This document shows positions 34,934 to 41,876 of a stretch of DNA of 58,275 nt, piece by piece. The stretch is from Polyangium fumosum (GTDB lineage: Bacteria > Myxococcota_A > Polyangia > Polyangiales > Polyangiaceae). The stretch spans positions 1-58,275 of the forward strand of contig NZ_SSMQ01000079.1 in NCBI RefSeq assembly GCF_005144585.1, in the 5' to 3' direction. Under the pieces are notes generated by a model, which was given only the letters and a program-made list of their open reading frames with translations, ran no database searches and was not told the DNA's origin. Position numbers and translations under genes: made by a program. Positions within the stretch are counted from its first letter, which is position 1, and every line of letters starts with the position of its first letter.

Positions 34934-36103
34934 TTACGGGCAGGCCGTCGCGTACATCAGGCGCTTCGCCGACAGGTCGTGGTAAGCGATGTGCACGCGG
35001 CCCGTATCATCCACCTTGAGCGAGCCGCCGGTCGCGAAGCTCGTCGGGTCCACCTCGGTGGTCTGGAAACTCCCCGTCGCATGGCTCGCATAGCTCATTC
35101 TCTGTGCCCCGATGTCGAGGTACGCGACGTGCGAGACGCCCTTCGCGTCGAGCGCGGCCGAGGTCGCGATGGAGCTCGTCGTGATGGGCTCCTTCGTCCA
35201 GCTCCCTGGTGTGCCCTGCATATGCAGGAGCCCGTCGTACGTGGCGGGGAAGATGTGCCGACCGCCCGTCGCGTCCACGAGGAAGGGGTTCGTCGTGTCG
35301 TACATGTAGCTCGACGTGACCTCGGCCTTGTCCCAGTTCATCGCGTCCACGCGGGCGGCGTGGTAGACGCGGAAGTAGATGTTGTTTTCGCGCTGGGTAT
35401 AAACGATCTCCGGGGTGCCATTGCGGAGCGCGAGGGAGGTGTTGCTCCCGGGCTGGAACGCGGTATTGACGACCTCGACCGTCCACGTGCCCGAGGCGTT
35501 CGTGGCGTACCGGACGTCGTCGAGCACGTAGAAGCTCGCGTGGAGCTTCCCGTTGGCATCGGCGACGAGCGAGAGCCCGTTGGCCGCTGCCGGCTCGACG
35601 ACCTCTTTTTTCCACGCCCCGTTCTCGTACGTCGCGTGCTTCACGGCCCCGTTGGCGTAATCCTTGTAAAGGATGTGCGGCCTTTCGTCGACGAAGACGA
35701 GCTGGCTTGCCCCGCCCACGTCGCCGGTGTCGATGGTCTCGACCTCGAAGCCATCCGCCGCGCTGCGTACGACCTGGAGCGTCTTCGAATCCTTCTCGTA
35801 GTAGGAGATCCAGATCTGATGGTTCTTCCCTATCTCGAGATCCGGCTGATTCCCATTCTTCGCGATGTCGATCGCCTTGAACTCCCAGGGAGAGGGAGAG
35901 CAAACACCGCTCCCACCCGCGCCCCCGCCGCCCCCTGCGCCGCCGCCGCCCCCTGCGCCGCCGGTGCCCGTCGTCGAGCTGCTCGATCCCGAGGGATCTT
36001 CGCCTCCGGCCCCGGTTTGCTTTTCGGGCTCGGAGCATGCGGCGAGGACGGGGAGGAAGGACACGAACAGACAAAGGAAACCACGTAAGCCAATTCCATG
36101 CAT
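34934..36103 (-). CDS. Lipoprotein with Gly/Ser linker and beta-propeller-like domain
   Basis: Protein of 389 aa. Signal peptide with lipobox PVLAAC (Cys23), then a Ser/Thr/Gly-rich linker (residues about 30-67), then repeated strand units such as NHQIWISYYEKDSKTLQVV, PHILYKDYANGAVKHATYENG, LHASFYVLDDVRYATNASG and VHIAYHDLSAKRLMYAT. The six or so repeats of about 45 residues with the H(I/V)xYxD motif are the pattern of BNR/sialidase-like propellers seen in many myxobacterial lipoproteins. Sialidase catalytic residues are not evident. Confidence 0.8.
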   Translation of the reverse strand: MHGIGLRGFLCLFVSFLPVLAACSEPEKQTGAGGEDPSGSSSSTTGTGGAGGGGGAGGGGGAGGSGVCSPSPWEFKAIDIAKNGNQPDLEIGKNHQIWISYYEKDSKTLQVVRSAADGFEVETIDTGDVGGASQLVFVDERPHILYKDYANGAVKHATYENGAWKKEVVEPAAANGLSLVADANGKLHASFYVLDDVRYATNASGTWTVEVVNTAFQPGSNTSLALRNGTPEIVYTQRENNIYFRVYHAARVDAMNWDKAEVTSSYMYDTTNPFLVDATGGRHIFPATYDGLLHMQGTPGSWTKEPITTSSIATSAALDAKGVSHVAYLDIGAQRMSYASHATGSFQTTEVDPTSFATGGSLKVDDTGRVHIAYHDLSAKRLMYATACP

Positions 36104-36313: not shown

Positions 36314-36886
36314 TCAATTGCTGTCCGGACACGTGCCGGTGATCTTCGGGGACTCACCGCACTCGACTGTGTAATCGCACGCGCCGTCTTTTATCTCGCA
36401 GCCGCCCCAGCCCCAGTAATCATGCGAGCAATACGCCAAGTTGCATAACTCGCCCTTCTCCGAAGGGGGTGGATTGCCCGTGCATTCGACCTCGCAGCCA
36501 GCGCAGGTGCAGCTCCGCGTGCACCAGCCGTTGCTCAGCGAGCACGGCCCGCCGGCTGCCCCTCCGGCGCCGCCGCTTCCTCCGCCTCCTTCATTGCAGG
36601 CACTCTCCCTATCGCAGACGCCGACAGGCGGACCGCCTCCGCTGGCCCACGGGTCGCAAAAGAAATGCCCGGAGGGATCACAGGTGCATCGGAGACCACT
36701 CTCGACGCCCGAATACGCACAGGTCGCTCCCGCCGAGCAAGGGGCGCCCATGCCGCAGCGTCGCTTCGCGAAGGAGTCGTCCCCTGATTCCGTGTTGGCG
36801 GCACCATCGCACGCACCCAGCGTCAACGCAGTCAGGAATGTCCACCACGCCGCGCGCGCTATCGATGCTATCTTGGTCAGGTTCAT
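36314..36886 (-). CDS. Small Cys-rich lipoprotein
   Basis: Protein of 190 aa. Signal peptide with lipobox TLGAC (Cys26), a Gly-rich linker (about 100-115) and about 20 cysteines in CxC/CxxC spacing (CGMGAPCSAGATCAYSG, CTRSCTCAGCEVEC). Cell-surface, disulfide-rich; no enzyme motif. Start ATG 36886 chosen because it begins the signal peptide; the 26-codon upstream extension does not fit. It precedes, on the same strand, the propeller lipoprotein after a 210-bp gap that shows no gene. Confidence 0.7.
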   Translation of the reverse strand: MNLTKIASIARAAWWTFLTALTLGACDGAANTESGDDSFAKRRCGMGAPCSAGATCAYSGVESGLRCTCDPSGHFFCDPWASGGGPPVGVCDRESACNEGGGGSGGAGGAAGGPCSLSNGWCTRSCTCAGCEVECTGNPPPSEKGELCNLAYCSHDYWGWGGCEIKDGACDYTVECGESPKITGTCPDSN

Positions 36887-37109
36887 GGCGCATCCATCGG
36901 AGCAACGGTTGGGCCAGGCATCGTCCGCGGAAAGGATCGCGCCGACGCCGCAGTTTGGCGACATGCCGGACGTTCAGGGTTGGCGCACAATGACTCAATA
37001 CAGGACTTTTAAAGCACACGTCGAGGTGGACGGCGTCGCGGCCGGGGCCGCCGCGTTCACCGTTTGATCCCTCGACACCTCCCCGCCGGCCCGGCTACAT
37101 TCGCAAGCC

Positions 37110-39756: not shown

Positions 39757-40050
39757 CGCTCCTCCACCCACGCCTGGAAAAATGCGACCTGGTCGGACGC
39801 ACGGACAACCATGCTACCGTGTCCCAATGAGGAGGAGCGTAAAAATGCCACGCTCCCGAACGCAGGTGGTGATCCGGTCGGTGCTGCGGCGGTCCTTGAT
39901 AGCTGAAAAAATATGGCCAAACCGCTCCCGGCGCTCAGGAGATGCACGAGGCCCCATGGCGGGTGGGAGACCCACTCGCCTCGGACGCCCACACGGCACA
40001 CGATTCATCCAGGCAACGGTTTGCCTGCAGATCGCATCAGGGAGGTGTCT

Positions 40051-40302
40051 ATGTTTTCCAGTCGAACGAAGCTCCGTGCATTGGCTGCGCTGGCTGCACT
40101 TGTGCTGTTTGGCGCCGCCACATATTCGACCTCGGCGCTGGCACAACGCACGACGACATGGCGGTGCTGGCACAATGGCGTCGCCCAGGGGACTGTCAGT
40201 ATCTGGTGGGGCCACACGGCGGGTGATGCCTCTTGGGCATGCAACAACTGGATTTCTTCGTGTGGGAATGCTTCGGGCGGGTGCTCCGCAACGGAATTGT
40301 AG
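40051..40302 (+). CDS. Small secreted Cys/Trp-rich protein
   Basis: Protein of 83 aa. Signal peptide with cleavage after TSALA (residues about 1-31), leaving a mature peptide of about 52 residues rich in Trp and Cys (WRCWHNGVAQGTVSIWWGH, CNNWISSCGNASGGC). ATG 40051 follows GGGAGG with good spacing. It stands alone between divergent and convergent neighbours. Could be a small exported binding or antimicrobial-type peptide (speculation). Confidence 0.65.
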   Translation: MFSSRTKLRALAALAALVLFGAATYSTSALAQRTTTWRCWHNGVAQGTVSIWWGHTAGDASWACNNWISSCGNASGGCSATEL

Positions 40303-40476
40303 CTTCTATCGTTTCTCGCCACGTTCTCTCGGCTTTCCGGCCGGGGCGAGGCGCGCACCGCGAGCGTGCGCAGGGCGTGCGAAGAAGCCGCTGGAGACCG
40401 GCTTGCACGCTTTGGGGGGAACGATAGCCGGAAGCGAGGGCCCGCGTGGTGTTGCTTGGGCTCCGTTCCCCGCCGT

Positions 40477-41712
40477 TTACTTTTTCACGACCGGTTTCCC
40501 ATCGCTCCGGCACGAATAAAACGAGTTGTACCCGTCCACGGTCGCGCTCTTGACGTTGTTCTTCCACGCGCAGGTGGGCATGCAGCAGTCCTGCATGGTC
40601 GTCGTGTGATAGGGCTCGTTGTTGAGCGTGCTGACGAAGCCGGCCGCCTTGGCCTGCGCGGCCGTCTGGATGTTCGGATCGGGCGCCGGGAGGCCCTGGG
40701 GAGCCAGCTTGCAGCCCGTGACCTCCGTCAGGTGCTCCGGACAAGCCACGCGCTTGGCGAGGACCTTCCAGTTCTCATGGTAGTACGAAGTGGCCTGGTT
40801 CGACTGGATGCAAGACTTGCGCGTCTCCTCCTGGAGCGTGGGGTCCGCGGCCGTGATGGTATTGCACGCGCTGGTGATTTTCTGCTGGCAGCTCCCGGAC
40901 GCGATCAATGCGTCGCTCAGGTTTCCCCCGTCATCGCATTTCATGCTGTCGGGCCCGGGCTTCACGCCGCCGTTGAACGCTTGCCCCTCCGAAGGATAGG
41001 TCTGGTACTGCGAATACCCGAACTTCGTCCCGTAGTTCAGGTCGGCGTCGCATGCGTTGAAGGCGCCGAGGCCTCCCGCTCCCATGTAGATGTCGAAGCC
41101 CGTCGCCCCCGAGGCCTGGGTGTTGAAGCTCTGCACGAGCAGCGGCTTCGGCGGCGTCAACGTCGAGTTGGTCAGGTACCTGGGGGCGTCGAAGACGAGC
41201 TGGTAGCACTGGCAACACGAGTCGGGCAGTCCCATGTCGAGGTTCGTCCCGTCGGGGTCGTGGCCCGCGACGGCATAGTTGAATTTGCCCTCGAAGCCGT
41301 CGTCGATCGCGGCCTGCTCCATCTCGTTCGCAAACAGCATGTAACGAGGGCAGGCGAACTGAACGGGGACCCCATCCTTGCCGCCCTCGCAGGCGTTTTT
41401 CGACGTGGGACCATAGTCGTTCGTGCACTCGCCGCCGCACGTGCTGCTCGTGTCCCCCTTTTTGCAGCCATCGACGGAGAACTGGTTCGAGCATTCGCTG
41501 GGCGGCGGAAGCGCATACCCCCCGGGCATGTCCGGGCCCGTCCCGCTGGACGCGTTCGAGGAGGTCGAGGCCCCGCGACTCCCCGTGGGGGACGTCGTCG
41601 AACTCGAACCATCCGTACCTCCGGCGCCCCCCGCGTTCTGGGTGCCAGAAGCGCTGTCGCAGGCAGCAGGAGCAAGGCAAAGGACGATCGGAACCAGGCG
41701 CGTCAACTTCAT
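40477..41712 (-). CDS. GH45/expansin-like secreted lipoprotein with permuted conserved blocks
   Basis: Protein of 411 aa with lipobox PAAC (Cys18) and a Gly/Ser/Thr linker. The block CCQCYQLVF (residues 166-174) then LLVQSFNTQASGATGFDIYMGAGGLGAFNACD matches the middle-to-C-terminal core of GH45 endoglucanases, including the acidic position Asp207 (TGFDI, the acid in family members). The other family hallmark, usually at the N-terminus (DCC..CAW with catalytic Asp), is seen near the C-terminus: Asp375 in TMQDCCMPTCAW (373-383). So both catalytic acids are present, but the usual order is inverted, suggesting a circular permutation of the double-psi barrel. Activity on cellulose or related glucan is inferred; not all key residues could be checked. 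Confidence 0.75.
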   Translation of the reverse strand: MKLTRLVPIVLCLAPAACDSASGTQNAGGAGGTDGSSSTTSPTGSRGASTSSNASSGTGPDMPGGYALPPPSECSNQFSVDGCKKGDTSSTCGGECTNDYGPTSKNACEGGKDGVPVQFACPRYMLFANEMEQAAIDDGFEGKFNYAVAGHDPDGTNLDMGLPDSCCQCYQLVFDAPRYLTNSTLTPPKPLLVQSFNTQASGATGFDIYMGAGGLGAFNACDADLNYGTKFGYSQYQTYPSEGQAFNGGVKPGPDSMKCDDGGNLSDALIASGSCQQKITSACNTITAADPTLQEETRKSCIQSNQATSYYHENWKVLAKRVACPEHLTEVTGCKLAPQGLPAPDPNIQTAAQAKAAGFVSTLNNEPYHTTTMQDCCMPTCAWKNNVKSATVDGYNSFYSCRSDGKPVVKK

Positions 41713-41876
41713 GAAGAACTCCAAAAATCGTGAAGGTAGTAGGGAGGAGACCCAACGAGGATTCCAAGAGAAGGACGAGGCGTCAACGCAAAGCGTCATG
41801 CCACGCGCTGGATTTCGACGAGGTCGTGCGCCGCGCGGCGGCGCCCGGACGACCCCTCGAACGATTCCCCGCGCCC

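Follow-up and report, generated by a model that had tools for sequence, protein, structure and literature searches.

A family of naturally circularly permuted GH45-like proteins in Myxococcota

The window, that is, the whole stretch of 58,275 nucleotides from Polyangium fumosum that was analysed (NZ_SSMQ01000079.1, from a host genome of 12.98 Mb), carries on its minus strand a gene for a GH45-like protein in which the parts of the GH45 domain stand in rotated order (Table 1). The gene opens with an ATG at 41712, with a GGAG ending 6 nt 5' of it, and its stop codon occupies 40477-40479. The orthologue in a congener is 91% identical over residues 1-410. The hydrophobic start makes it likely that the protein is exported, and the APAAC at the end of this putative signal could mark a lipoprotein. 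On the opposite strand, just beyond the 3' end of the permuted gene, a short ORF (40005-40302, plus strand, an in-frame part of 39913-40302) has a possible export signal, is rich in Trp and Cys at its end, and might encode a small secreted protein. Two further ORFs on the minus strand (34934-36103 and 36314-36964) probably carry export signals and contain stretches rich in Gly or Cys, with no Pfam match at E 0.001.

Table 1. Coordinates of the permuted GH45-like gene and of the parts of its product in the window.
Feature	Position	Strand	Basis
Gene for the permuted GH45-like protein (P0001; 411 aa and stop)	40477..41712	-	ORF and translation; 91% identical orthologue in a congener
Residues 1-18, putative hydrophobic export signal ending in APAAC, possible lipoprotein signal	41659..41712	-	reading of the sequence
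Residues 19-62, Ser/Thr/Gly-rich spacer	41527..41658	-	sequence
Residues 74-96, small Cys-rich leader C..NQF..GC..G...S.CGG.C; counterpart absent from the aligned ordinary GH45 rows	41425..41493	-	alignments
Residues 108-334, GH45 core, about residues 47-199 of ordinary GH45, first in the chain here	40711..41391	-	hhalign; VIA-align to 5gly and 3eng; phmmer
Asp207, equivalent of the catalytic acid Asp121	41092..41094	-	D in 28/28 permuted and 30/30 ordinary rows
Residues 335-369, new linker from the old C-terminus to the old N-terminus	40606..40710	-	best rotation cuts fall here; pLDDT block means 96-98
Residues 370-411, moved block TTTMQDCCMPTCAW...FYSC, the start of ordinary GH45	40480..40605	-	phmmer and hhalign matches to the GH45 N-terminus
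Asp375, equivalent of the catalytic base Asp10	40588..40590	-	D in 28/28 permuted and 30/30 ordinary rows

An earlier note on this DNA had claimed that the GH45 core comes first in this protein and that the DCC...CAW block, with which ordinary enzymes open, stands at the C-terminus, and had proposed a possible circular permutation. Several kinds of search bear out this order. In a phmmer search of PDB sequences the GH45 5gly was matched in swapped order (whole-sequence E 0.0027), query residues 370-387 falling on chain residues 7-24 (7.3 bits) and 165-253 on 86-167 (17.5 bits), and a profile of 28 members, window protein included, matched 1oa7 in three segments, also in swapped order (E 1e-10). 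Furthermore, an HMM built from seven ordinary myxobacterial GH45s and run on all fetched ORFs detected 18 of the 28 permuted members, each with the core positions first and positions 4-27 (or nearly) at the C-terminus; the remaining 10 stayed under its threshold, and their swapped order was read from end-to-end alignment. The same HMM gave one continuous match, from position 1-2 to 196-215, at each of 30 ordinary loci, whose usual order is partly selected because they were chosen as the best returned by PF02015. Proteins with a DCC block at both ends were absent from the HMM-searched ORFs listed.

Comparisons with hhalign agree with a rotation at one point of the chain. The 28-row alignment in native order gave two separate matches (97.8 and 50.6), versus a single match of 128.1 over 221 columns when it was rotated. 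In a scan of 59 cut points, cuts at residues 330-372, which lie past the last core motif and before the DCC block, reached 123-128, cuts inside the core (222-324) still reached 105-108 because the block is thereby joined to part of the core, and other cuts gave 70-98; control shuffles of 40-column blocks (40 of them) had a maximum of 91.1 and a mean of 53.8. The rotated score and the peak between the two blocks thus support the proposed permutation. Chance similarity of the DCC/CAW block was considered and rejected: the block matched on its own (score 50.6, probability 89, E 2e-6), which together with its Asp and Cys in 28/28 rows makes chance very unlikely, and the cut-point scan and the swapped-order match to 1oa7 speak against it as well.

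In Pfam scans the full native window protein had no PF02015 match. Its native residues 104-411 scored 28.1 bits against this family, for which the curated cut-off is 27 bits, the rotated and trimmed form 41.7 bits and a form cut inside the core 23.5 bits, while the rotated but untrimmed protein had no match. A single rotated sequence with its leader untrimmed likewise brought no gain in a search of PDB (best E 0.0044, with 5gly at 0.015 against 0.0027 in native order), and a gain from rotation was seen only with the profile or the trimmed form. At E <= 0.1, PF02015 matched 10 of the 28 permuted members, and expansin families were absent from the Pfam scans of the window protein and the 28 members. 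Since profile searches that depend on order can miss such proteins, as with the full window protein and with all except these 10 members, permuted GH45s are probably under-annotated.

We have hardly any doubt that the window protein is a natural circular permutant of GH45, and permuted GH45 is confirmed as a family of proteins in Myxococcota and not a single oddity, which goes beyond the earlier note. The 28 aligned members are the window protein and 27 relatives that are 42-93% identical to it (one of them, L007, cut by a contig end); all 28 have the rotated order and both catalytic Asp, and as far as they are named they belong to Myxococcota. A species-wide scan, which reaches close relatives only, returned 12 loci, each bearing the title Myxococcales, Polyangiaceae, Polyangium or Deltaproteobacteria; one of them is a remnant and one is broken, probably by a frameshift. 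In a class sample of 240 genomes 26 matched: 23 have a permuted gene (window genome included), one has a remnant (G197) and two match at a low-complexity start only (G017 and G103), the last three being left out of the permuted counts. Within the window's family, Polyangiaceae, 19 of 108 genomes match the profile, nine of them along a stretch that begins close to the start and extends through the moved block (G000, G187, G180, G226, G514, G521, G522, G547 and G554), one partially through the moved block, one as a remnant and eight only in the core common with ordinary GH45. Among 377 genomes sampled from the phylum there were 6 matching genomes, all in the class, and no member outside it. In one permuted relative (L012/L057, G058:C189) the gene is split into two overlapping frames, a frameshift being probable. 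Finally, in an unrooted tree with 30 ordinary myxobacterial GH45s, for which the permuted rows were rotated before alignment, the permuted members make up one side of a branch with support 100/100, and three eukaryotic GH45s, when added, join the ordinary side of that branch. A single old permutation event would be the simplest reading of this tree.

One catalytic Asp is preserved in each of the two parts. Asp207 sits in FDIYMGAGGLGAFNAC and Asp375 in TTTMQDCCMPTCAW, and the earlier statement that these two catalytic-type residues are retained holds throughout the family. In the accessible text of PMC5829257, Asp121 of HiEGV is given as the proton donor and Asp10 as the base, the two being 11.3 A apart. 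The four Cys of the moved block (376, 377, 381 and 401) are C in 28/28 rows, and Cys 221, 108, 166 and 121 of the core are C in 28, 27, 28 and 27 of 28 rows, the gaps belonging to the contig-cut row. We take these core residues to be the expected partners of 376, 377, 381 and 401, respectively, and the disulfides of GH45 subfamily A to be 11-135, 12-47, 16-86, 31-56, 87-199 and 89-189. The window protein has Cys at all twelve of these positions, each of which is Cys in 27 or 28 of the 28 rows, the equivalents of Cys87 and Cys199 being so in all 28. Since both parts kept the Cys pattern, the pieces that would have to be re-joined in space retain the Cys for it. The 30 ordinary myxobacterial rows (L016-L045) have Gly at 87 in 30/30 and Cys at 199 in none (26 with another residue, 4 gaps), and the pair is present in 5gly as in the permuted rows.

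Additionally, further positions of the active site, Tyr8 and Ala74, on which the earlier note was silent, have changed. The Tyr8 equivalent is Met in 28/28 permuted rows (Met373 in the window protein), and the Trp9 equivalent is Gln in 24 and Glu in 4. The column that we take as Ala74 from HiEGV numbering (with a one-residue label offset after the first block) has Gly in the 27/27 permuted rows with a residue there, versus Ala in 30/30 ordinary rows. Trp18 has a kept equivalent in the window protein, and at the place of Asp114 no Asp is found in its alignment with GH45s. Other residues are invariant and specific to the family: Gly150-His151-Asp152 in 27/27 rows, and Asp159, Tyr311, His312, Asn314 and Trp315 in 28/28.

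Because both catalytic Asp are retained, hydrolysis can be argued for; the permuted protein is likely an exported inverting beta-glucanase, and we lean towards its having hydrolytic activity. Its substrate or activity may differ from those of known cellulases, given the changes from Tyr8 to Met and from Ala74 to Gly. In this regard, the available part of a study on beetle GH45 (PMC6509783) describes Tyr8, Ala74 and Asp114 as important in GH45 and suggests that Ala74Gly may have made two beetle proteins inactive, with Tyr8Phe and some changes of Asp114 being tolerated. A broader reading, to which we give even chances, is that the family represents an unrecognised clade of permuted GH45 fold which split before or near the fungal-bacterial divergence of subfamily A and has its own active site, made up of Met-Gln where Tyr-Trp otherwise precedes the base, Gly-His-Asp in the loop of Ala74 and the invariant Tyr-His-x-Asn-Trp; its substrate or mechanism would therefore be new among double-psi barrel glycosidases.

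The same substitutions could also point to a permuted GH45 fold that does not hydrolyse, namely a carbohydrate-binding or an expansin-like loosening protein in which both Asp are kept for structure or binding. Met at Tyr8 throughout, Gly at Ala74 in every row with a residue there and the missing Asp at the Asp114 place are in keeping with this, the more so as changes of this kind are in part tied to loss of activity in the beetle proteins, for which the same portion of PMC6509783 reports the tolerated ones mentioned above. However, the equivalents of Asp10 and Asp121 are both invariant (28/28 each), expansin EXPB1 is without the Asp10 equivalent in the accessible text of PMC5829257, and Asp159, Tyr311, His312, Asn314 and Trp315 are invariant as well, as expected of an active site. 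We consider such a loss of hydrolysis unlikely.

With respect to gene context, the congener G187 has its permuted gene 79 bases 5' of a co-oriented GH5 cellulase gene (PF00150, E 9.5e-44), and in Polyangium sp. y55x31 (G197) the same GH5 is adjoined only by a 157-base remnant of the permuted gene. This remnant (L093:8814-8970, also L015 and L068) comprises roughly the moved block and about 20 bases beyond the stop and is 90% identical to window 40458-40614, the rest of the permuted gene being unmatched at that locus. The window genome has a counterpart of the GH5 (91% DNA identity) on another contig. Among six genomes of the genus, this GH5 type, as assigned by profile range and score, is found in three that have the gene or the remnant and is absent from the other three. 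Between the window (40454-41823) and an 18-kb congener locus (L092), DNA similarity is confined to the gene, 23 bases past its stop and 111 before its start; the surroundings differ, so that either the gene or its surroundings moved within the genus.

Neighbourhoods were also scanned more widely, with 147 ORFs chosen in 20 neighbourhoods, of which 16 permuted genes and 17 ORFs longer than 640 aa were left out. Among the 25 of 140 families listed for the 114 neighbouring ORFs scanned there was no common partner, with no glycosidase and no family found more than 3 times; the GH5 neighbour in G187 is one of the 114 and lies outside the 25 listed. Carbohydrate-binding Pfam domains were absent from all 10 long relatives scanned (10/10). 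Across the 240 genomes, ordinary GH45 occurs in 15 of the 23 with a permuted gene versus 21 of the 217 without (Fisher p 5e-9, kinship ignored), four genomes (G012, G039, G081 and G226) being left out of the ordinary counts as their PF02015 match is the permuted gene. Kinship alone may explain this co-occurrence. Of these observations, the GH5 neighbour in G187 and the co-occurrence with ordinary GH45 count in favour of the explanation preferred below, and the lack of binding modules and of a glycosidase among the listed neighbour families counts against it.

The predicted structure is that of one confident domain. AlphaFold2, run with the 28-row alignment, gave a pTM of 0.89 and a pLDDT of 84.8, with about 25 residues below 50, and the new linker (residues 335-369) is predicted to be ordered, as its pLDDT block means in Table 1 indicate. 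The sequential aligner VIA-align matched the model to ten GH45 chains (Z 10.3-11.8, 168-177 residues), best to 5gly (Z 11.8, rmsd 3.0 A, 176 residues, model residues 10-287 on chain residues 27-213). Matches to fungal GH45 begin at chain residue 25-27, and the GH45 opening block is without a sequential counterpart. Foldseek returned one match with E < 0.001, to 1l8f (rmsd 12.5). In the model the permuted domain has the double-psi barrel fold, which is reportedly the subject of Castillo et al. 1999.

Removal of residues 346-411 (the moved block together with two thirds of the linker), for which the alignment was rebuilt separately from the full-length one, lowered the pTM from 0.89 to 0.78. The mean pLDDT dropped most over model residues 11-60 (83 to 52); it also dropped over 1-10 (63 to 44) and 271-280 (96 to 76), and over 61-270 the change was slight (83 to 79). 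Model residues 11-60 correspond to the leader and the part that follows the DCC block in ordinary GH45. The prediction thus suggests that the N-terminal part of the core depends on the moved block for its order. For the truncated model VIA-align reached a Z of 10.5 at most, which is uninformative on docking. From these changes of confidence, the sequential structural alignment and the Cys pattern, we infer that block and core would be in contact in one barrel.

Contact could in principle be made between molecules, the moved block completing the barrel of a neighbour and the active form being a domain-swapped dimer or oligomer, which a connector of about 35 residues could permit. We regard this as improbable, because the prediction gives an ordered connector (pLDDT block means 96-98) and a pTM of 0.89 for the single chain. 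It is still less probable that a truncated GH45 core has been fused to an independent small DCC domain, descended from the GH45 start and lying outside the barrel. The two separate hhalign matches in native order would fit such a fusion, but deletion of the block sharply lowers confidence in the N-terminal core and the four expected Cys partners are still in the core; the lack of any Pfam match for the isolated block (45 aa) also speaks against it, weakly because the block is so short. An artefact of assembly or gene prediction, for which we found nothing in favour, can be dismissed for practical purposes, as the same order recurs in the 28 aligned members from many assemblies, one of them on a 13.2 Mb contig.

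Taken as a whole, a permuted, exported GH45 that hydrolyses beta-glucans with an altered preference is the explanation we hold with good confidence. The swapped order, its conservation across the family and the confident prediction of one domain come directly from the computations, whereas docking geometry, disulfides, export, hydrolysis and substrate are inferred. The old GH45 ends would have been joined by the ordered linker of about 35 residues, and new ends created in the loop that lies between the counterparts of Cys31 and Cys47. The C-terminus would then supply the strand with the catalytic base Asp375 (Asp10), docking back into the barrel beside the catalytic acid Asp207 (Asp121) and held there by the same Cys pairs as link the two pieces in ordinary enzymes. 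The protein would be exported, perhaps anchored at the cell surface through its flexible spacer, and would most likely hydrolyse beta-glucan with inversion, with a preference possibly unlike that of known cellulases, given the replacement of Tyr8 and Ala74.

By titles and the starts of abstracts, no report of a permuted GH45 was found among the papers listed in searches of open-access PMC. In the accessible portion of PMC7410926, permutation is mentioned only in a reference on binding modules, and a 2025 survey of myxobacterial carbohydrate enzymes (PMC12093494) names GH45 once in the section available, in a list. Small designed barrels have been interconverted, including by circular permutation from OB to SH3, with no GH45 in the available part of that work (PMC11258233). 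Cellulase design could draw on the permuted family for natural scaffolds whose termini are new and whose new linker is predicted to be ordered, and genomes that have both ordinary and permuted enzymes provide material for comparing the two.

Compared with known systems, the permuted proteins have the same double-psi barrel core in the model as GH45 subfamily A (Humicola insolens EGV 2eng/3eng, Thielavia 5gly, Melanocarpus 1l8f; VIA-align Z 11.0-11.8), and share with it both catalytic Asp and the Cys positions, among them the CC pair and the C-terminal TGC, along with Trp18 in the window protein. They differ from it in the rotated order of the chain, in TMQDCCMPTC where subfamily A has RYWDCCKPSC, and in Gly for Ala74; in addition, they have a Cys-rich leader, long insertions and the family-specific signatures GHD...D and YHxNW. 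The ordinary GH45s of the same bacterial class (30 loci) belong to the same fold family and often occur in the same genome, but they have the usual order and are without the Cys87/Cys199 pair retained by the permuted rows. Subfamily C (PcCel45A) and expansin domain 1 have the barrel in common with the permuted protein, although subfamily C chains reach a VIA-align Z of just 2.3-2.8 against the permuted model. In PcCel45A, Met17 of the first strand touches the ligand via its backbone, according to the accessible text of PMC5829257, and Met373 of the window protein is perhaps comparable to it. The same text describes both subfamily C and expansin domain 1 as being without the Asp10 equivalent, and here the window protein differs from expansins, since it has Asp375.
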